From Terriglobia bacterium (lineage in GTDB: Bacteria; Acidobacteriota; UBA6911), in assembly GCA_020072565.1 (NCBI GenBank), contig JAIQGI010000018.1, forward strand, positions 62,001 to 126,000: a DNA stretch of 64,000 nucleotides. Reading direction: 5' to 3'. How positions within the stretch are numbered: position 1 is the stretch's first letter; every line of letters starts with the position of its first letter. The notes under the pieces are model-generated. The model made no database searches and had not been told where the DNA came from. It worked only from the letters and a program-made list of their open reading frames with translations. This document shows positions 1,765 through 13,995 of this stretch, one piece after another. Both the position numbers and the translations under genes were made by a program.

Positions 1765-4653
1765 ATGAGCACGAGAAGGAATGGACTGGCGCTGGTCTTG
1801 ATACTGGCTTTGTCACTGGCGGCTACGAGCAGCCTCTTCGCCCAGGCCGCGATTTCGCCGCCCAAATTCGGCCAATACACCGCCGGCGATGATTATTTTC
1901 TAGGAAACTATACCCAGCTTGTCGAGTACTGGGGCAAGCTCGCGAAGGAATCCGACCGGATGAAAGTGGTCGAGATCGGCAAGACTTCCGAGGGCAGGAC
2001 CATGATCATGGCGATCATTACCTCGCCGGCAAACCTTAAAAAGCTCGACCGCTACAAGGATATCTCCCAGCGGCTGGCGCGGGCCGAAGGACTGACCGAC
2101 GATGAAGCCCGGAAGTTGGCTGCCGAGGGCAAGTCCGTAGTCTGGATCGACGGCGGTCTTCATGCGACCGAGTGCGTCCCCGCGCAGCATCTGTTCGTGT
2201 TTGCCTACCAGATGGTCAGCCAGTCGGATCCGGAGACCATGCGGATCCTGAACGACGACATCCTGTTGCTTGTACCGGTCAATCCGGATGGCATGGAACT
2301 TGTCTCGAACTGGTACATGCGGGAAGCGGATCCGAAGCGGCGCTCCACGGGTGGGCTCCCCGTCCTCTACAGCAAGTATGCCGGCCACGACGACAACCGC
2401 GACTCGTTCATGGTGAATCTCTCGGAGACCGAGGCCATCTCGCGCCAGATGTACATCGAGTGGATTCCGCAGATAATGTACAACCAGCACCAGAGCGGCC
2501 CGGCCGGATCGGTCTTGTTTTGCGCTCCGTTCCGTGATCCCTTCAACTACAACCACGATCCATTGGTCCCGATCGGCATCGACCTCGTGGGCGCCGCGAT
2601 GCACAACCGATTCATCGCCGAAGGGAAGCCCGGCGCCGTGATGCGCAAGGCTGCTTCCTACTCGACCTGGTTCAACGGCGGCGTGCGCACAGCCACCGGA
2701 TTCCACAACCAGATCGGCATTCTGACGGAGATCATCGGCAACCCGACGCCCTCGAACATTCCCTTCGTGCCCTCGCGCTTCGTTCCCGACGGCAACCAAC
2801 CTTTCCCGATCATGCCTCAGGAGTGGCACCAGCGCCAGTCGATTGACTACCTGCTCACCGCAGACCGCGCGATCCTTGACATCGCCTCGAAGCTGCGCGA
2901 GGACTTCCTCTACCGGATTTACGTCATGGGGAGGAACTCGATCCAGCGCGGCAGCCAGGATTCCTGGACAATCACCCCGAAGCGCCTGACTGCGCTCCAG
3001 GAGGCGGTTGCCAGGGATCAAGGGGCGCAGCAGGGCGCGCAGCCGGCGGCGGGAGGCAGAGGCGGCCGGGGCGCAGGCCCGGGCGGAGCAGCAGGCGGGG
3101 GAGGCGCGGCCCCGAGCTTCGGCCGGGGCGGCACCGACATCAAGTACCTGAACGCGGTATTGCATGATCCGGCCCGGAGAGATCCCAGGGGCTACATCGT
3201 GCCCTCCGACCAGCCCGATTTCCTGACCGCGACGAAGTTCATGAACATCCTCATCAAAACAGGGGTCGTGATCCACCGGGCGACGAGTTCGTTTCAGGTT
3301 GCCGGGAAAACCTACCCGGCGGGTTCCTATGTCATCAAGACCGCCCAGGCTTTCCGCCCGCACCTGCTCGACATGTTCGAACCCCAGGATCATCCCGACG
3401 ATATTCCCTATCCCGGCGGGCCGCCCACGCGGCCTTACGATATCACCGGCTGGACTCTCGCCTTCCAGATGGGAGTGCAATTTGACCGCATTCTCGAAGG
3501 CTTTGACGGGCCCTTTGAGAAAATCCCGGCCTTGATCAAGGCCCCTGCCTTCAAATTGACGGCGGGAGGAACTGCAGCAGGCTACCTGTTGAGCCACCAG
3601 GTTAACGACGCGTTCGTGGGCACGACCCGTCTGCTGAAGACCGGGGAAGAGGTGTATTGGCTGAAATCGCCCTTCTCTGCAAACGGCAAGACATATCCAG
3701 TCGGCACTATCTATATTCCGGCCAGGACCACGACGCGCGCCGCTATAGAGAAGCTGGCCGCCGACATCGGCCTGGGCTTCGAGGCAACTTCGACCGCGCC
3801 CGCTGCGGACGCGCTGAAGTTGAAGCCGCTGCGCGTCGGCTTGTATGACACCTACGGCGGGTCGATGCCTTCCGGCTGGATCCGGTACATGTTCGAGCAG
3901 GGATTTCCTGATACTCCTTACGAGCTGGTTTTCGCCCCGGCCCTCGATGCCGGAAATCTCATCAGCAAGTACGATGTCATCATCCTGCCCGATGGGGCAG
4001 GGATGAGTGGGGGCGGAGGCCGGGGAGGCGGAGGCGGTGGCGGAGGCCGCGGCGGCGCTGCCAATGTCCCGCCTGAATACCAAAATCGCATCGGCTCGAT
4101 GACCGTCGCCACTACGTTGCCGCAGTTGCGGAAGTTCGTGGAAGACGGAGGGACGCTGGTTGCCATCGGCTCTGCGAGCAATATCGGACATCAGCTAAAC
4201 CTGCCGGTCTCGGACGCGCTCGCGGAGAAACTCCCGAACGGCACGGAGCAAGGGCTCCCGGCGGCGAAGTACTTCGTGCCCGGATCCGTCCTCCAGGTCA
4301 GCGTCGACAACACTAATCCCATCGCCTACGGCTTGTCCGAGAAGGTGGATGTCTTCTTTGACAACAGCCCCGTGTTCCGTCTCGATCCCGACGCAGTGCT
4401 GAAAGGCGTCCGCCCGCTGGCTTGGTTCTCCAGCGCGACGCCTCTGAGGAGCGGCTGGGCCTGGGGGCAGTTCTACCTCGAAGGCGGCGTTGCTGCGCTC
4501 GAAGCGCCCATGGGCAAGGGCAGGGTTGTGTTGATTGGGCCCGAGATCACGTTCCGCGCGCAGCCGCACGGCGCTTTCAAGTTCCTCTTCAACAGCATGT
4601 ACCTCGCAGGCGCGACACCGGTGAAGCTGGGAGCCGCCGCAGCGGGCCGATAA
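1765..4653 (+). CDS. Secreted M14-family zinc carboxypeptidase, Gly-rich insertions
   Basis: A 962-residue exported protein. The start at 1765 is chosen over an in-frame ATG 36 bases upstream because GGAAGGAG lies about 10 bases before it and the signal peptide then begins MSTRRNGLALVL with likely cleavage after FAQA. The M14 zinc-carboxypeptidase domain occupies roughly residues 30-390: metal ligands are suggested by GGLHATECVPAQH (HxxE) and by the histidines in YNQHQSG, NPDGMELVSNWY is the usual Asn/substrate region, and the glutamate in GILTEIIGNP is the probable catalytic base. Two low-complexity Gly/Arg-rich stretches interrupt it (around residues 415-455 and 750-765). The C-terminal third resembles a glutamine-amidotransferase-like fold common in large acidobacterial M14 proteins. 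It is followed 116 bp later by the M16 genes, a likely peptide-degradation cluster. Confidence 0.85.
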   Translation: MSTRRNGLALVLILALSLAATSSLFAQAAISPPKFGQYTAGDDYFLGNYTQLVEYWGKLAKESDRMKVVEIGKTSEGRTMIMAIITSPANLKKLDRYKDISQRLARAEGLTDDEARKLAAEGKSVVWIDGGLHATECVPAQHLFVFAYQMVSQSDPETMRILNDDILLLVPVNPDGMELVSNWYMREADPKRRSTGGLPVLYSKYAGHDDNRDSFMVNLSETEAISRQMYIEWIPQIMYNQHQSGPAGSVLFCAPFRDPFNYNHDPLVPIGIDLVGAAMHNRFIAEGKPGAVMRKAASYSTWFNGGVRTATGFHNQIGILTEIIGNPTPSNIPFVPSRFVPDGNQPFPIMPQEWHQRQSIDYLLTADRAILDIASKLREDFLYRIYVMGRNSIQRGSQDSWTITPKRLTALQEAVARDQGAQQGAQPAAGGRGGRGAGPGGAAGGGGAAPSFGRGGTDIKYLNAVLHDPARRDPRGYIVPSDQPDFLTATKFMNILIKTGVVIHRATSSFQVAGKTYPAGSYVIKTAQAFRPHLLDMFEPQDHPDDIPYPGGPPTRPYDITGWTLAFQMGVQFDRILEGFDGPFEKIPALIKAPAFKLTAGGTAAGYLLSHQVNDAFVGTTRLLKTGEEVYWLKSPFSANGKTYPVGTIYIPARTTTRAAIEKLAADIGLGFEATSTAPAADALKLKPLRVGLYDTYGGSMPSGWIRYMFEQGFPDTPYELVFAPALDAGNLISKYDVIILPDGAGMSGGGGRGGGGGGGGRGGAANVPPEYQNRIGSMTVATTLPQLRKFVEDGGTLVAIGSASNIGHQLNLPVSDALAEKLPNGTEQGLPAAKYFVPGSVLQVSVDNTNPIAYGLSEKVDVFFDNSPVFRLDPDAVLKGVRPLAWFSSATPLRSGWAWGQFYLEGGVAALEAPMGKGRVVLIGPEITFRAQPHGAFKFLFNSMYLAGATPVKLGAAAAGR

Positions 4654-4769: not shown

Positions 4770-6113
4770 ATGAGGATCTTCCTGATTGTCATTCTTATCG
4801 TCAGTCTGGCCGCTGCTTCCATGGCCGGGCCGCCGCAGGGAGGAAAGATATTCCCCTTCGACTACAAACTGGTAACGCTTCCCAACGGTTTTAAGGCCTA
4901 TCTCATCAAAGCCGGCGCGCCGGGACAGATCGCATATGTCACGGTGGTACGCACGGGTGCGCGCGAGGAATGGGAGCCGGGCAAGACCGGGTTTGCTCAC
5001 TTTTTTGAGCACATCATGTTCCGCGGTACGGACAAGTATCCCAACTATGATGCCATCACGACCCGCATCGGCGCCGCGCGCAACGCCTCGACGAACATCG
5101 ATGTCACCCAGTACTACCTGCTGGCTGCCAGCAGCTCGCTCGAGCAGATCATCGATCTCGAATCGGACCGCTTCATGAATCTCAAGTACACCGAGCCGAT
5201 TTTCCGTACGGAAGCCGGCGCGATACTGGGAGAATTCAGCCAGGGGCGCTCCAATCCGATGCTCTACCTGATGGAGAAGCTGATGGACACCGCGTTTGAC
5301 GCTCACACTTACAAGCACCTCACCATCGGCTTTGAAAAAGATGTCCGCAACATGCCCGAGGGTTACCAGTACAGCATCAGCTTCCACCAGCGCTATTACC
5401 GGCCGGAAAACTGCGTGCTGCTGCTGGCGGGGGACTTCGATGTGAATCACGCCGAACAGCTGATCACAAAATATTACTCGGCGTGGAAACCGGGCTATGT
5501 GAAGCCTGAGATCAAACCCGAACCCGCGCAAAAGACTCCTCGCGAAGCCACGGTGGAATTTCCCGGCCGCAGCCTTCCGATCCTGACGGTCGCCTTTAAG
5601 GGACCGGCCTGGAGCGCGCACGATAAGCTGGCGGTCGCCACGGAAGTCCTTGGAATGGTCGCCTTTGGACCCAACTCGGATATCTACAGAAAATTGGTCA
5701 TTCAGGATCAGAAAGTGCAATCCCTTTCGGGCGGATTCAACCTGAGCCGCGACCCGAACCTTCTTACCATCACGACCATGGTAACCAACCCGCAGGACCT
5801 GCCGATGATCAAAGATGAGATCCGCAAGACCGTCGAGAAGTTCCGTGCCGAACCTTGCGACTCGAAGCTGCTGGCCGACACCAAGAGCAGCATGAAATAC
5901 GGTTTTCTCATGCGGCTCGAGACTCCCCAGGGTATTGATTTCGCGCTTAGAAACTTCGTTGTCTTTACCGGCGGCATCGAAGCCGTGGAAGATTATTATA
6001 GGACACTCGAAGCGATCACCGCGGAGGACATCAAAGCAGCTGCCAACAGGTTCCTGGTCGAAAACGGCCGGACCACCGTAATCCTGCTGCCCGCCAAGGG
6101 AGGTGCCCAATGA
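4770..6113 (+). CDS. M16 family zinc peptidase (catalytic subunit)
   Basis: A 447-residue protein with a signal peptide (MRIFLIVILIVSLAAASMAG) and the inverted zinc motif HFFEH at residues 77-81 (H77, E80, H81) of M16/pitrilysin peptidases. The distal glutamate is expected in the helix around TEAGAILGEFSQG, about 75 residues later, as usual for M16B. The second half carries the M16 C-terminal domain. The ATG follows AGGGAGGA. The next gene starts within the last four bases (ATGA), so the two are translationally coupled, and the partner looks like the non-catalytic subunit. Together they probably form a periplasmic heterodimeric peptidase that degrades unstructured peptides. Confidence 0.88.
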   Translation: MRIFLIVILIVSLAAASMAGPPQGGKIFPFDYKLVTLPNGFKAYLIKAGAPGQIAYVTVVRTGAREEWEPGKTGFAHFFEHIMFRGTDKYPNYDAITTRIGAARNASTNIDVTQYYLLAASSSLEQIIDLESDRFMNLKYTEPIFRTEAGAILGEFSQGRSNPMLYLMEKLMDTAFDAHTYKHLTIGFEKDVRNMPEGYQYSISFHQRYYRPENCVLLLAGDFDVNHAEQLITKYYSAWKPGYVKPEIKPEPAQKTPREATVEFPGRSLPILTVAFKGPAWSAHDKLAVATEVLGMVAFGPNSDIYRKLVIQDQKVQSLSGGFNLSRDPNLLTITTMVTNPQDLPMIKDEIRKTVEKFRAEPCDSKLLADTKSSMKYGFLMRLETPQGIDFALRNFVVFTGGIEAVEDYYRTLEAITAEDIKAAANRFLVENGRTTVILLPAKGGAQ

Positions 6114-7645
6114 AAAAGATCGTTATTTCCACAGCGCTTGTCTGCTGCTGTATGACTCTCGGCTGCGCAGGACCCGAGAGGGCGAAAGCCCCGGAGGGGA
6201 TTGTCACTCTCAGCGAACCTGGCTCCCCTTTTGTTGCCTTCAACATCTGGGTGAAGGCCGGCTCTCAAAATGATCCACAAGGCAAGGAAGGGCTGGCTTC
6301 GCTCACGGCAAACCTGTTGTCGGAGAGCTCGACCCGGCAGGACAGCTACGAGCAAATCCTTGCCAAGCTGTATCCCATGGCCGCGGGATATGACTATAAT
6401 GTTGACAAGGAAATGACTGCCTTCAGCGGCCGGATTCACCGGGACAACCTGGAGACCTACTACAGCCTCTTTAAGAATGCACTACTCTCTCCCGCCTTCA
6501 AGGAAGAGGATTTCAAGCGCATCAAGACTCAGACTGTCAGCTACCTCAAACAAGCCCGGCGTTTCTCCAATGACGAGGAACTGAGCAAGGAACTGCTGTA
6601 CTGGCAGATCTTCAAGGGCACACCCTATGAGCACCCCGAGGAAGGGTACGTCACATCTGTCGAGTCCATCACCCTTGACGATGTGAAGGCCTTTTACGCA
6701 AGGTACTACACTCGCGACAACGTGGTAGTCGGCGTCGGCGGCGGCTATCCCGAAGATTTTGCCGCCCGGGTGCGTACTGACTTCGACACTTTGCCGGCCG
6801 GCAAGGTTGCGCCCGCGCAGAAGCCGTCACCCGCTGCCGGCGACGGGGTCAAGATCCTGATCGTCGAGAAAAACGTGATTTCCACGCCCATCTCCTTCGG
6901 CTTCCCGATCCCGCTGCAGCGCTCAGATCCGGATTTCTACGCCATGATGCTCGCCAACTCATGGATGGGCGAACACAGGACCTCCGTGAGTCATCTCTAT
7001 CAGGTGATCCGGGAGAAGCGCGGCATGAACTACGGCGATTACTCCTACATCGAGGCCTACCCTCAAGGGTACGCCACTCAAGTGCCGCCGACCAACGTCT
7101 GCCGCCGGTCGCAAATCTTCGAGGTATGGATCCGGCCGATCGCGGCGACGGCGCCCGGCACCCTGCACGACCGCTCGTTGTTTGCCTTCCGGGCCGCGTT
7201 GCGCGAGGTGGCCAGGCTGGTGGATAACGGCATGACATCGGAGGCGTTCGACACCCAGCGCGGATATCTCAAGAACTATTACGTCAACTTCGGAAACACG
7301 GTCGGGCGCCGCCTCGAGTACCGAATCGATGATGCTTTCTACGGCATCCCCGACCCGGGCTTCCTGGCCTCCACGCCTCAGGGACTCGATGCTCTGACGC
7401 TGGAGAAGGTGAATGCTTCCATCAAGAGGCACCTGCAGTCCAGGAACATGTGGGTGGTATTCATCACCCAGGACGCGGAGAGTATGAAGAAGAAGCTTCT
7501 GGCGGGAGCACCTACGAACATCACCTATGCCGGCAAACAACCCCAGGAAGTGCTCGATGAGGACAAGATCATCGCCGCCTTCCCGATCCCGGTAAAACCG
7601 GAAAACATTGCAATCATCAACATCAACGACGTCTTCGAGAAGTGA
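6110..7645 (+). CDS. M16 family peptidase-like lipoprotein (non-catalytic partner)
   Basis: A 511-residue lipoprotein. The N-terminus ends in the lipobox LGC (Cys20), so it is predicted to be lipid-anchored. The fold is M16: the strand and helix preceding the zinc site are visible (FNIWVKAGSQNDPQGKEGLASLTANLL), but the HxxEH motif is replaced by GLASLTAN, so it cannot bind zinc. The later region REKRGMNYGDYSYIEA corresponds to the Arg/Tyr substrate-binding segment of the partner subunit in two-subunit M16B enzymes. ATGA overlap with the upstream catalytic gene supports a complex. An independent binding or chaperone role is possible. Confidence 0.85.
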   Translation: MKKIVISTALVCCCMTLGCAGPERAKAPEGIVTLSEPGSPFVAFNIWVKAGSQNDPQGKEGLASLTANLLSESSTRQDSYEQILAKLYPMAAGYDYNVDKEMTAFSGRIHRDNLETYYSLFKNALLSPAFKEEDFKRIKTQTVSYLKQARRFSNDEELSKELLYWQIFKGTPYEHPEEGYVTSVESITLDDVKAFYARYYTRDNVVVGVGGGYPEDFAARVRTDFDTLPAGKVAPAQKPSPAAGDGVKILIVEKNVISTPISFGFPIPLQRSDPDFYAMMLANSWMGEHRTSVSHLYQVIREKRGMNYGDYSYIEAYPQGYATQVPPTNVCRRSQIFEVWIRPIAATAPGTLHDRSLFAFRAALREVARLVDNGMTSEAFDTQRGYLKNYYVNFGNTVGRRLEYRIDDAFYGIPDPGFLASTPQGLDALTLEKVNASIKRHLQSRNMWVVFITQDAESMKKKLLAGAPTNITYAGKQPQEVLDEDKIIAAFPIPVKPENIAIININDVFEK

Positions 7646-7706
7646 CGGAGAATGGATCCCGGCGGGCAGAACGCAACACAGCATTGTGGCGCAGCCAGAT
7701 TGGCAG

Positions 7707-7754
7707 CCACGAAACACGAGAGAATCCCTTTCGGGTGATTCGTGTGTTTCGTGG
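7707..7754. terminator. Long hairpin between convergent genes, likely terminator
   Basis: CCACGAAACAC at 7707-7717 is the exact reverse complement of GTGTTTCGTGG at 7744-7754, and the inner bases pair partly around a TTTC loop. It lies midway between the convergent M16-like and aminotransferase genes, so a bidirectional terminator is plausible. The words are also typical of dispersed intergenic repeats in environmental genomes. Confidence 0.5.
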
Positions 7755-7810
7755 CCTCTGGCGCCGGGTGCGACCGCCTTCCCGCGCCGTGCTATCTGCC
7801 CGTGAGGTTT

Positions 7811-9211
7811 TTACCTGCCAGTCCTGATTCTGCGTGCTGCGCGCTGGCAGGCAAGCTCCAGGAAAGCCATGTCCTCATCCGTGTGTGCTGTGGAGACTGC
7901 GCCATGGCCGTGTACGAAGTAGACGTTCTCGAGCAGCAGTGCGAGCGGAAGCACGTGCGCGCTCAATTCGGCGTCGCATATCGAGGGGTCAAACAACTTT
8001 TCGGGCCTGTCCAGGACAGTATCTTCCCGGTAGGGGAAGTGCAGGTAACCCAATGAACTGCCGGGGACCGCGTCGTTGCCGGAGCCGCTGCAGCGCGCAT
8101 AAAATCCCTCATTCCGGCAGGCGGTCTCCAATGCCCGGCGCATCTTCTCGCCGAGGATCGCGAGGCGTGGATAGATTTCTGCTTCGTGCTTGATCAGGTA
8201 CTCCAGCATGGTCTTGGCTGCGAGCATCGACGCCGGATGAGCTGAGAATGTGCCCCCGGAAAACTTGACTCGTCCACCGCCCGAACGTCCTGCCAGCCCC
8301 ATGACATCGGCGCGGCCCGCAACAGCTGCCACCGGCATACCGCCGCCGATGATCTTGCCGAAGACACTCAAATCCGGTGCAATCCCGTACAGAGCTCCCA
8401 GATTTCCGGCGCGAAAGCGAAAACCGCAAATAACCTCATCAAAAATGAGCAGGGCTCCCCGGTTCAGCGTCAGCTCGCGGGCGGTGTGGAGAAACTCGCG
8501 TGTGGCGGGCATGAGCCCACCGGCGCCGATGAACGGCTCGACGATGAAGCAAGCCAGCCGGTCACCGTACCTGCGGAAGCTCTCTTGCAGCCCCTCGGTA
8601 TCGTTGAAGCCCGTGATCGCCACCTCTCCGGCCACGGAGGAGGAAAGCCCTTCGCTGTCGAGCTTCATGAATCCCTTGCCGTTCTCCTCATGGAAACTCA
8701 CGCCTTTCAGCCCCCAGGGCTGTCCGCCATGCCAGCCGCCACCGATCTTGAGCACCATGGTTCGACCTGTGAAGGAGCGGGCGAGCATGATGGCGTACAT
8801 GGTTGCGAGCGATCCGCTGGTGGTGAAGCGCACGCGCTCGGCGCCGGTCTGCCGGCAGAGGAGCTCGGCCGTTTCCACCTGCAGAAGGTCGGTGAATCCG
8901 GTCTGCAGGCCGAAGCCGTCGGCAAAGGCACGTGCCAGAACATCAGTCACAACCGGCGGATTGTGGCCCAGCACATTGCCCAGGTGACCCTGCCAAAAAT
9001 CCAGGATATTGTGGCCATCCTCGTCCCGGATGTGAGCTCCCCGGGCAGAAACAATGCGAGGTGCAAAGGGCTGCATGAGGCGGAGCTGATGGCTGCCTCC
9101 ATCCACGAGGTGCCTCCTTGCCATCTCATCGATCGCGCCGGATTTGGGCGAGAAGCTCGCGTAGGCTTCCCGCAGGTTCGCCAACAGATTCGTGTGGTCC
9201 CCACTCCCCAT
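7811..9211 (-). CDS. Class III PLP aminotransferase (glutamate-1-semialdehyde aminomutase-like)
   Basis: A 466-residue fold-type I PLP enzyme. Visible class III features are the phosphate-binding region (TTSGSLATMYAI), the cofactor aspartate in LIFDEVICGFRF, and the Schiff-base lysine in FGKIIGGGMPVAAVAG (about residue 285). This lysine context is that of glutamate-1-semialdehyde 2,1-aminomutase and related enzymes, but there is no haem-synthesis context, so the substrate is uncertain. The ATG is preceded by a strong AGGAGG. It is the second gene of a two-gene minus-strand unit, 43 bp behind another aminotransferase, suggesting amino-acid or modified-amino-acid metabolism. Confidence 0.8.
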   Translation of the reverse strand: MGSGDHTNLLANLREAYASFSPKSGAIDEMARRHLVDGGSHQLRLMQPFAPRIVSARGAHIRDEDGHNILDFWQGHLGNVLGHNPPVVTDVLARAFADGFGLQTGFTDLLQVETAELLCRQTGAERVRFTTSGSLATMYAIMLARSFTGRTMVLKIGGGWHGGQPWGLKGVSFHEENGKGFMKLDSEGLSSSVAGEVAITGFNDTEGLQESFRRYGDRLACFIVEPFIGAGGLMPATREFLHTARELTLNRGALLIFDEVICGFRFRAGNLGALYGIAPDLSVFGKIIGGGMPVAAVAGRADVMGLAGRSGGGRVKFSGGTFSAHPASMLAAKTMLEYLIKHEAEIYPRLAILGEKMRRALETACRNEGFYARCSGSGNDAVPGSSLGYLHFPYREDTVLDRPEKLFDPSICDAELSAHVLPLALLLENVYFVHGHGAVSTAHTDEDMAFLELACQRAARRIRTGR

Positions 9212-10490: not shown

Positions 10491-10636
10491 TTGTACCTCC
10501 TGGTTCAGTCCTCCGATATCCGGCTATTCTATTGGTTTTGACGCGAAAAGCAACAACCGCAGGAGTCAGGGGTTAGGAGTCCTTGACAAGATGACGCGCT
10601 AAGGTATGATCAGCCTCTTCCCCGAGGGAGCGAGAC

Positions 10637-12601
10637 GTGGATCAGAAGATTGACTACGCGGAAGTCGGCCTCATTGCCGGCCTGGAAGTGCATCAACAGC
10701 TGATGACCGAGCGCAAGATGTTCTGTCACTGCCCGGCGGGCCTGTACACCGACACGCACGACGGCGTGGTACTGCGTCACATGCGCCCCACACTGTCCGA
10801 GTTGGGGGAGTATGACGGCACGGCGCTGATGGAATTCAAGACCAAGAAGAACATCATCTACCTCTTGCACCAGCGGAACGTCTGCACCTACGAGATGGAT
10901 GACACGCCCCCTTTCCTGGTCAATCAGCAGGCTGTGGATATCGCGATTGAGCAATGTCTGATGCTGGGCTGCGACATTGTGGACGAAGTGCATATCGCCC
11001 GCAAGCAGTACCTGGATGGCTCCATTCCGACCGGGTTCCAGCGTACCGCGATCGTGGGCGTCAACGGGCGATTGCCGTTCCGGGGGCGGGAAATCTCCAT
11101 CATCCAGGTCAGCGTCGAAGAGGATTCCTGTCGCGAGGTCTCGGATCAGGGCCACCTCATTGTCTGGCGTACGGACCGGCTGGGAATGCCTCTGATCGAG
11201 ACTGTCACCGGCCCGGACCTGCACACACCGGAGGAAGTGGAAGAGGCGATCCTGCTCGTCGGCCGCGTGTGCCGTTCGACCGCGCACGTTCGCGTCGGCC
11301 TCGGCGCCAGTCGCCAGGATGTCAACGTGTCGGTGCGCGGCGGACGCCGGGTCGAGATCAAGGGAGTGCCCAAGGCAGGATGGGCGCCAAGGCTGGTTCA
11401 CGGCGAAGCGGTTCGCCAGGTCAACATGCTCAGGCTGCGGGAAGAATTACACCGGCGCGGCTGCACCGCACCCGGAACGATCGCAGTGGATTCTGCGGAC
11501 GTGACGGATCTGTTTGCCAATTCCGAGTACCAGCCTCTCCGCCGCGAGGCTTGGGAGCAGTGGGTGAAAGAGCAAAAACGGCGGACCGGCTTCGAGCTGG
11601 GCGTGGGAGCATTCGTTGTCCAGGCTGTGCGGCTGAAGGGCCTGACAGGAACTCTCTCCTGGCCGTCACAGCCGGACCTCACCTTTGCCCACGAACTGGC
11701 CGGGCGCGTACGCGTGATCTCCGGATTGGATCAGCCTCCCATCCTGTTGAGCGGGGAAAAATGGCCGGATTACCGGGGAGCACTCCAGGAGTTGCGCCGG
11801 GTGCGATCCCGGCTGCACTGTGAAACCGAGGATGCGATCGTCGTGGTCTGGGGACCGGAGGAGGACTGCCGTACCGCGGCCGACGAGATTCGCCTCCGCT
11901 ATGCCGACGCCACTGCGGGCGTACCCAATGAAACGCGCCAGCCGTTCGAGGACGGCAGTACGGATTTCGAACGTATTCTGCCCGGACCGGACCGCATGTA
12001 TCCGGACACCGACAGCCCGCCGACGCGAGTCACCCGCGAACGCGTATCACGGCTGCAGGCGAACCTGGCCGAGAAGCCCTGGCAGCGCGAGACACGCTAT
12101 GCTGCCGTAGGAGTGCCGGCCGCGACCACCCACTTCCTGATTCGCCGGGGCGGCGCGGCGATGGTCGATCGCGTCGTCGCGGAGTGCGGCGCCGACCTGC
12201 GACAGGCATGTTTCCTTTTCGGCGAGCGGCTCGTAGGTTTGCGGCGGGCGGGCATTGCCGTCCACCAGATTCCGGCGGAACGCTGGTGCGAGTTCTTCCG
12301 GGCGCTGGTCGCCCGCCCGGTGCTGTTCGAGGCCAGGGACATCCTGGTGCGGCGCATGGCGGAAACCCCCGGCGAAAGCCTGCCTGGGATCCTGGAGAAA
12401 CACGGGTTCAATCAGACGCCGGAAGACTGGCGCGCGAGCCTGCTGCAGCGTGTCGCCGAGTCGGCTCAGGCCGCCTACCGCAAAGATTCGGAGTTAGTGC
12501 GCCGCCTTGCGATGGGGCGGATGATGTCCGGTCTGCTGGGCCGGGTACCCGCGCGCGAAGTCGCCGCGGCACTGCGAAGCAGGATGGAGGAAATTCAATG
12601 A
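10637..12601 (+). CDS. gatE: Archaeal-type Glu-tRNA(Gln) amidotransferase subunit E
   Basis: A 654-residue protein matching GatE, the tRNA-binding kinase/transamidase subunit that converts Glu-tRNA(Gln) to Gln-tRNA(Gln) with GatD. The GatB-like cradle domain (residues 1-280) begins GLIAGLEVHQQLMTERKMFC and contains DGSIPTGFQRT and GLGASRQDVNVSVRGG. A GAD insertion domain follows (about residues 280-405), ending in the GatE-specific VPNETR and PDRMYPDTDSPP segments. GatB lacks this insertion. Helical and YqeY-like tail domains occupy the C-terminus. The start is GTG with GAGGGAG upstream. The stop overlaps the gatD start (ATGA). GatDE is regarded as the archaeal system; bacteria normally use GatCAB or GlnRS, so this pair is probably horizontally acquired. 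The spacing and intact motifs argue it is functional. Confidence 0.93.
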   Translation: MDQKIDYAEVGLIAGLEVHQQLMTERKMFCHCPAGLYTDTHDGVVLRHMRPTLSELGEYDGTALMEFKTKKNIIYLLHQRNVCTYEMDDTPPFLVNQQAVDIAIEQCLMLGCDIVDEVHIARKQYLDGSIPTGFQRTAIVGVNGRLPFRGREISIIQVSVEEDSCREVSDQGHLIVWRTDRLGMPLIETVTGPDLHTPEEVEEAILLVGRVCRSTAHVRVGLGASRQDVNVSVRGGRRVEIKGVPKAGWAPRLVHGEAVRQVNMLRLREELHRRGCTAPGTIAVDSADVTDLFANSEYQPLRREAWEQWVKEQKRRTGFELGVGAFVVQAVRLKGLTGTLSWPSQPDLTFAHELAGRVRVISGLDQPPILLSGEKWPDYRGALQELRRVRSRLHCETEDAIVVVWGPEEDCRTAADEIRLRYADATAGVPNETRQPFEDGSTDFERILPGPDRMYPDTDSPPTRVTRERVSRLQANLAEKPWQRETRYAAVGVPAATTHFLIRRGGAAMVDRVVAECGADLRQACFLFGERLVGLRRAGIAVHQIPAERWCEFFRALVARPVLFEARDILVRRMAETPGESLPGILEKHGFNQTPEDWRASLLQRVAESAQAAYRKDSELVRRLAMGRMMSGLLGRVPAREVAAALRSRMEEIQ

Positions 12602-13995
12602 GCGCAGAGACGCGGGACGAACTCAAAGGGTACAGGGGGAGAGCCCGCGCCAGGCTCGCCGCCCTCGGGCTGCGCGTCTGGAGCGAAGTGCGTCTGACGA
12701 ACGACGCCGGCAGCATCTTCGAGGGCGTGATCCTGCCTCGCAGCGAGACACTGGACGATGAGCACATCGTGATCAAGATGAAGAACGGGTATAACGTGGG
12801 CGTGCACTTCGAACGTGTGGCCGCTGCGGTGGAACTCGGGTACAAGGAGGCAATCTACAAGATTCCCGAAAAGGCGTTCCCGGTCAATCCGGCCCTGCCT
12901 CGAGTGACTCTTCTGGGCACCGGAGGCACAATCGCATCGAGGCTCGACTACCGCACCGGTGCCGTGATCCCCGCCTTCACGCCGGGAGAATTGTACGGAG
13001 CCGTACCCGAACTCGCCGACATCTGCAACCTGACCACGAAGAAGCTGTTCGGCGTTTTCTCCGAGAACATGGCTATGGAACAGTACGTCGTGCTGGCACG
13101 GGCGATCGGCTCGGAAATCGAAGCCGGCGTCGACGGCATCGTGATCGGTCACGGCACAGACACCATGGGGCACACCGCTGCGATCCTGTCGTTCATGGTG
13201 CAGAACTCTCCGGTGCCCATCGTCATCGTCGGCAGCCAACGATCAAGCGACCGCCCATCCTCTGACGCCGCCCTCAACCTGATCCACTCCGTGCGCTCCG
13301 CGGCCTACGGCGACATTGCCGAGGTGCAGATCTGCATGTTCGGCCCGACCTCCGACCGCTACGGCTTGCTTCACCGGGGCACGCGCACACGCAAGATGCA
13401 TAGTTCCTATCGGAACACATTTCGCACGATCGGCGACATCCCCCTTGCGATTGTCAGCCGCGATAGCTTTACCTATATCAACAATGACTACGCAAAACGA
13501 GATCGCAGCCGGAAAGTGAAGATCGATCCGGCCTATAACGACCGCACCACCATTCTTTACTACTATCCGGGGATGAATCCCGACCTCGTGGACGCGCTGG
13601 TCGAAAAAGGCTACCGCGGGATCGTCATTGCGGGCACCGGACTCGGCCATGTCAACAAGCCACTCTACCCCGCACTCAAACGCGCGGTTGCCGCGGGTGT
13701 TCACGTGGTGATGACCGTCCAGACACTCTGGGGCTATGCCCAGATGTATGTCTACGACACCGGGCGCGATCTGCTCGATCTGGGAATTGTTCCGCTCGAC
13801 AACATGCTCCCCGAAACCGCCCTCATGAAGCTTTCCTGGGTGCTCGGCCACACGGATGATCACGAAGAGGTGACGCGCCTGATGCGCCTCCCGATCAACC
13901 ATGAAATCACCGAGCGGGAACCCCATAACGGCTACCTGATCATGCAGGGCGGACTCCCCGAGACCGAGGAATACATCCAGTCCCACTGGAAATAA
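12598..13995 (+). CDS. gatD: Archaeal-type Glu-tRNA(Gln) amidotransferase subunit D (asparaginase-like)
   Basis: A 465-residue protein, the ammonia-producing partner of GatE. The start at 12598 overlaps the gatE stop by four bases; longer readings into gatE are excluded. An N-terminal SH3-like domain (residues 30-85: FEGVILPRSE, HIVIKMKNGYNVG) is specific to GatD and absent from plain asparaginases. The L-asparaginase I-type domain follows, with catalytic residues visible as T111 (GTGGTIAS), T187-D188 (GHGTDTM) and K266 (GTRTRKMHSS). SSDRPSSDAALNL, GTGLGHV and DMLPETA-like signatures also match GatD. It would hydrolyse glutamine and pass ammonia to GatE. Neighbours give no archaeal context. 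A cytoplasmic asparaginase is the alternative, but the N-domain and the gatE coupling make it unlikely. Confidence 0.93.
   Translation: MSAETRDELKGYRGRARARLAALGLRVWSEVRLTNDAGSIFEGVILPRSETLDDEHIVIKMKNGYNVGVHFERVAAAVELGYKEAIYKIPEKAFPVNPALPRVTLLGTGGTIASRLDYRTGAVIPAFTPGELYGAVPELADICNLTTKKLFGVFSENMAMEQYVVLARAIGSEIEAGVDGIVIGHGTDTMGHTAAILSFMVQNSPVPIVIVGSQRSSDRPSSDAALNLIHSVRSAAYGDIAEVQICMFGPTSDRYGLLHRGTRTRKMHSSYRNTFRTIGDIPLAIVSRDSFTYINNDYAKRDRSRKVKIDPAYNDRTTILYYYPGMNPDLVDALVEKGYRGIVIAGTGLGHVNKPLYPALKRAVAAGVHVVMTVQTLWGYAQMYVYDTGRDLLDLGIVPLDNMLPETALMKLSWVLGHTDDHEEVTRLMRLPINHEITEREPHNGYLIMQGGLPETEEYIQSHWK

Follow-up and report, generated by a model that had tools for sequence, protein, structure and literature searches.

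Bacterial GatDE, an amidotransferase pair encoded alongside glutaminyl-tRNA synthetase in an acidobacterial genome

The described systems closest to the gatE-gatD operon (gatED) of a Terriglobia bacterium (Acidobacteriota), studied here in a 64,000-nucleotide stretch of contig JAIQGI010000018.1 (positions 62,001 to 126,000, assembly GCA_020072565.1; the window), include: (i) archaeal GatDE, known from Pyrococcus abyssi (1ZQ1) and, with tRNA-Gln, from Methanothermobacter thermautotrophicus (2D6F), which has the same two subunits, domain order, fold, catalytic residues and GatD N-terminal domain as the window proteins, (ii) bacterial GatCAB, which catalyzes the same class of reaction and in which GatB shares its catalytic domain with GatE, but where GatB lacks the GAD insertion, the amidase GatA stands in place of the asparaginase-type GatD and GatC is needed, (iii) type I asparaginases, which have the catalytic domain and triad of GatD but neither its N-terminal domain nor a GatE partner, and (iv) the GluRS1/GluRS2-GatCAB system of Acidithiobacillus ferrooxidans, in which a glutamyl-tRNA synthetase (GluRS) that charges tRNA-Gln(CUG) and not tRNA-Gln(UUG) needs an amidotransferase (PMC3927822). 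The A. ferrooxidans system operates without glutaminyl-tRNA synthetase (GlnRS) and uses GatCAB, whereas the window genome has GlnRS and carries GatDE as an extra enzyme. The bacterial GatDE differs from the archaeal enzyme in forming a deep, separate clade, in a conserved C-terminal extension of GatD, in the presence of GlnRS in its hosts (absent from archaea) and in the first nucleotide of the host tRNA(Gln), which is U1 rather than A1.

Reviews from 2022 describe GatDE as restricted to archaea (PMC9499178) and as an archaeal signature (PMC8762117); according to one paper, bacteria that encode both routes to Gln-tRNA are not known. No paper describing a bacterial GatDE was found in the literature searched, which did not extend to subscription papers. 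Databases may already annotate bacterial GatDE; the novelty is thus in the biology and not in the existence of the sequences.

The window operon encodes a true member of the GatDE family. The gatE gene (10637-12601, plus strand, GTG start) specifies the 654-residue subunit E of Glu-tRNA(Gln) amidotransferase, the kinase/transamidation and tRNA-binding subunit, while gatD (12598-13995, plus strand, ATG start) specifies the 465-residue ammonia-supplying subunit of glutaminase/asparaginase type. The genes overlap by ATGA, as the first-pass annotation had read them, and a GGAGG ribosome site for gatD lies within the 3' end of gatE. The GatE protein passes the NCBIfam cut-offs of NF003107 (466 bits, cut-off 456) and TIGR00134 (388 bits, cut-off 320), whereas the best GatB model reaches 134 bits and remains under its cut-off of 338. 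Similarly, GatD passes TIGR02153 (491 bits, cut-off 324) and NF003217 (494 bits, cut-off 310); it also passes a broad type I asparaginase subfamily model (367 bits, cut-off 260), but far below its scores with the GatD models, and falls under the cut-off for asparaginase II. The SH3-like N-terminal domain that had been read from the GatD sequence is recognized as PF18195 (GatD N-terminal domain) and is followed by the asparaginase domain (PF00710 and PF17763). The pair does not have the make-up of GatCAB (a GatB equivalog with GatA and GatC), and its assignment to GatDE, rather than to GatB and a plain asparaginase, holds by both the curated model scores and the fold of GatE.

An AlphaFold model of GatE (predicted local distance difference test score, pLDDT, of 90) finds the archaeal GatE structures 1zq1_C (TMt 0.81) and 2d6f (0.79-0.81) as its top matches in the PDB, with all GatB chains behind. 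The modeled fold is that of GatE, including an insertion in the catalytic domain that has no counterpart in GatB. This insertion spans approximately residues 275-430 (11459..11926, plus strand), with borders estimated from the alignment to 1ZQ1 and 2D6F and from the gapped GatB_N match, in which residues 13-470 of GatE align to model positions 2-276. The first-pass annotation had called it a GAD insertion marked by the PDRMYPDTDSPP motif; an insertion absent from GatB is indeed present, but the GAD model has no match in the window GatE (it is found in 10 of 43 family members) and PDRMYPDTDSPP lies in the catalytic domain past the insertion.

The residues which we take to be catalytic are intact throughout the family. 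T111, T187, D188 and K266 of GatD, listed at the outset as the full set of asparaginase triad positions, are invariant in an alignment of 67 bacterial and two archaeal GatDs, as are E17, H19, E161 and E188 of GatE in 80 bacterial and three archaeal sequences. The ratio of nonsynonymous to synonymous substitution rates (dN/dS) is 0.03-0.21 for both genes in six close pairs of relatives; thus, gatE and gatD are under purifying selection. The gene pair itself is also maintained, with 53 of 67 measured gatE-gatD spacings between -60 and +20 nucleotides (nt), exactly ATGA in 30 and spread over many phyla. Certain features set the bacterial proteins apart, including clade-wide substitutions near conserved motifs (V374, T376 and W378 of GatD; I130, P131, C165 and V190 of GatE) and a GatD C-terminal extension (residues 441-465; 13918..13992, plus strand) that is absent from the two archaeal GatDs. 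Model confidence is low at residues 442-453 of this extension, while E441, P442, N444, G445, Y446, Q450 and G451 are invariant in bacteria. GatE C30, C32, H48 and C83 are likewise invariant in bacteria, with cysteine positions found in M. thermautotrophicus but not in P. abyssi, and could form a metal site.

The gatED operon is a member of a large, old bacterial family distributed over many phyla rather than a fresh archaeal import. When GTDB species genomes were scanned with the window GatE, at least 581 relatives were recovered; the 80 that rank highest, which were analyzed, are all bacterial, 42-76% identical and drawn from more than 10 phyla (Acidobacteriota, Myxococcota, Gemmatimonadota, Planctomycetota, Ignavibacteriota, Chlorobiota, Bacteroidota, Calditrichota, Zixibacteria, Latescibacterota, Aminicenantes and others). 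GatE had no match in viral contigs. In trees, the window GatD and GatE are nested deep in the bacterial GatDE clade among Acidobacteriota and Myxococcota proteins, the nearest GatD being an acidobacterial protein of 86% identity. The archaeal sample consists of two complete PDB sequences and one truncated Natrinema copy, and with only two or three such sequences the window proteins do not group with archaea; the 67 bacterial GatDs are set apart from the two solved archaeal GatDs by a branch with a length of 2.45 changes per column, fully supported (100%) in the Shimodaira-Hasegawa-like approximate likelihood ratio test (SH-aLRT). Phyla are intermixed in the tree; thus, the sequences suggest transfer of GatDE among bacteria. 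Among the 11 genomes sampled from the host class, GatE is confined to the window genome, and gain in this lineage therefore looks horizontal, with another bacterium as the most likely donor. The first-pass annotation had likewise proposed horizontal gain, and that part looks right; its archaeal donor is not supported. Patchy presence in the class is what a recent gain from an archaeon would leave, but such a gain is highly improbable given the bacterial relatives, the close acidobacterial GatDs and the long supported branch. The Natrinema copy is an unannotated truncated gatE on a haloarchaeal megaplasmid (Natrinema thermotolerans plasmid CP031304; L123:3995-5341) and is perhaps a pseudogene.

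A chimeric assembly or archaeal contamination is very unlikely to account for the locus. The draft genome (7.46 Mb) has a completeness of 98% and an estimated contamination of 3.8%, the latter leaving some room for such an error; however, the window contig is 189 kb in length, and the GC content at third codon positions (GC3) of gatED is 0.77-0.78, equal to that of several neighbor genes. The contig also carries glnS with an adjoining tRNA-Gln(CUG) gene (C18:51133-53061), approximately 20 kb upstream of gatE, and this neighborhood recurs in another genome of the family (G135), where tRNA-Gln(CUG) and glnS are 88 bases apart. The two genes are also side by side in G063, where tRNA-Glu(CUC) follows. 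The same gatED operon is, moreover, present in metagenome-assembled genomes (MAGs) and chromosome-level records (CP070758, CP054675 and CP070631) of independent studies. The original view that gatED resides in a bacterial chromosome is therefore sound.

GatDE of bacteria keeps company with GlnRS, the reverse of what is seen in archaea, where GatDE takes the place of GlnRS. The window genome encodes GlnRS (756 bits; its gene is on the window contig), asparaginyl-tRNA synthetase (AsnRS), two GluRS and a complete GatCAB, with gatA, gatB and gatC apart from gatED. A check for gatCAB, glnS and the GluRS type had been advised, and the outcome is that GatDE does not replace the bacterial route, as had been considered, while duplication of that route is possible. 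Among 50 other GatDE genomes, GlnRS is over the cut-off in 43 and present as fragments in two more, and GatB is found in 19. GatB is missing from the complete Ignavibacteria genome G043, which encodes GatDE together with GlnRS and AsnRS. Within the host phylum, 119 genomes were sampled evenly, of which 16 have GatE, 14 of these being near-complete. GlnRS occurs in 14/14 near-complete genomes with GatE versus 54/91 without it (p=0.001; p=0.024 for all genomes), in counts uncorrected for shared ancestry. An enzyme called exclusively archaeal in reviews is, thus, nearly always found here beside the GlnRS that should make it unnecessary. This coexistence bears on the argument that archaeal GatDE blocks the entry of GlnRS, and a bacterial GatDE bears on classifications of GluRS specificity that considered GatCAB only (PMC3927822).

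The tRNA(Gln) of the bacterial hosts also departs from the archaeal setting. The A1-U72 pair of tRNA(Gln) is needed by archaeal GatDE (PMC9499178). By searches with a covariance model and a pattern allowing A1 or U1, approximately 120 tRNA-Gln were found over 74 genomes; every one has U1 and none has A1. Most GatDE genomes have a canonical tRNA-Gln(UUG) together with a tRNA-Gln(CUG) that is without nt 47, and the tRNA-Gln(CUG) of the window genome also carries A46, like tRNA(Glu). Absence of nt 47 and presence of A46 are tRNA(Glu)-like identity features. In three lineages unrelated to one another, a gene for tRNA(Gln) or GlnRS lies immediately upstream of gatE, compared to approximately 0.04 such cases expected in 80 genomes by a rough estimate. 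In the related Myxococcota MAGs L022 (7804-7875) and L024 (5660-5731), a divergent tRNA-Gln(CUG) is located approximately 120 bases upstream of gatE, and in L052 glnS (6232-7881) is divergent beside gatE. The third case is a Holophagaceae MAG (bog_363, L050), which has a tRNA(Gln)-like tRNA with the anticodon CUA at 4188-4263, 69 bases upstream of gatE. The body of this tRNA is that of the tRNA-Gln(CUG) of G147 and G077, ARAGORN labels it tRNA-Pyl and a terminator-like hairpin follows; it is possibly an amber-reading tRNA(Gln). The L022 and L024 tRNAs have C2 in place of G2, a type also seen in G012 and G047.

The reading favored here, with a probability of about 0.5, is that gatED encodes a functional amidotransferase that repairs Glu-tRNA(Gln), mainly of the CUG isoacceptor, in parallel to GlnRS. 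GluRS would mis-glutamylate tRNA(Gln), chiefly the CUG isoacceptor, as A. ferrooxidans GluRS1 glutamylates tRNA-Gln(CUG) and not tRNA-Gln(UUG), with the same predicted for acidobacteria (PMC3927822). GatD would then release ammonia from glutamine or asparagine, while GatE would phosphorylate the gamma-carboxyl of the tRNA-bound Glu and amidate it, such that Glu-tRNA(Gln) is converted to Gln-tRNA(Gln) alongside GlnRS. Repair is the most likely task since GlnRS already charges tRNA(Gln) in GatDE bacteria, although GatDE may be a second real route where tRNA(Gln) has diverged from the identity that GlnRS reads. The invariant catalytic residues, the purifying selection, the conserved operon, the co-occurrence with GlnRS and the tRNA(Gln) or glnS neighbors speak for this reading, in which catalysis, the tRNA(Gln) substrate and the CUG preference are predicted. 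Several observations weigh against repair as the dedicated function. The GatCAB of the window genome could perform the same repair, and both of its tRNA(Gln) genes keep U1-G2-G3, of which G2 and G3 are read by GlnRS in Escherichia coli. In favor of repair, a tRNA(Gln) lacking G2 or G3 is more frequent where GatDE is the sole amidotransferase (8/28 genomes versus 3/46 others, p=0.013), but the numbers are low, taxonomy is a confounder and the difference from GlnRS-only genomes is not significant (8/28 versus 0/8, p=0.10). The tRNA-Gln(CUG) without nt 47 was rejected as a GatDE-specific trait, as genomes that lack GatDE also have it, among them two from the family of the window genome (G135 and G163). 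Arginine at position 358 of GluRS, said to mark discrimination of tRNA(Gln), is present in most GatDE genomes and also in GatCAB genomes without GlnRS, and so is uninformative as a marker.

A tentative further reading is a dual system, in which GlnRS and GluRS plus GatDE would divide tRNA(Gln) between them. The CUG isoacceptor would fall to GatDE, leaving its acceptor stem free to lose GlnRS identity, and in some lineages the tRNA gene lies next to gatED. It is somewhat doubtful that GatDE instead provides a second, redundant way of making Gln-tRNA(Gln) from both isoacceptors, kept for regulation or for a different amide donor (asparagine as well as glutamine). The intact enzyme and operon, the membership of GatD in the asparaginase family and the occurrence of GlnRS with just one GluRS in nine of the phylum's 14 near-complete genomes with GatE (such that a dedicated second GluRS is unneeded) would all be accommodated by redundancy, while the conservation over many phyla at low dN/dS, and an occurrence almost only with GlnRS, suggest a job that arises from the presence of GlnRS.

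Action on another substrate, either a different Glu-tRNA or a non-translational amidation, with only a historical link to tRNA(Gln), is unlikely, yet could explain the clade-wide substitutions, the conserved GatD extension, the U1 in place of the A1-U72 read by archaeal GatDE and the retention of GatDE where GlnRS and AsnRS cover Gln and Asn. The core catalytic residues are, however, all kept, no biosynthetic gene is conserved as a neighbor and the telling neighbors, where present, are tRNA(Gln) or glnS. The absence of GatB from 31 of the 50 other GatDE genomes could similarly point to GatDE as the supplier of Asn-tRNA(Asn). This role was rejected as scarcely probable: AsnRS is encoded by 36 of 39 GatDE genomes without GatB as well as by the window genome, and archaeal GatDE is specific for Glu.

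The surroundings of the operon are variable. Comparison with 80 other gatED loci shows that only the gatE-gatD pair itself is kept, with none of the window neighbors conserved beside it; the flanking aminotransferases and an FNR-like gene were, thus, dropped as parts of the system. A sigma-70-like sequence (TTGACA-16-TATGAT; 10583..10610, plus strand; 11/12 consensus matches) ends 26 bases before the gatE GTG, and since chance alone would yield one site of this kind in the region, its position is only suggestive of a promoter. Further upstream, at 4770-7645, two adjacent genes encode M16-type peptidase-like proteins, which match the YfmH and YfmF families weakly.

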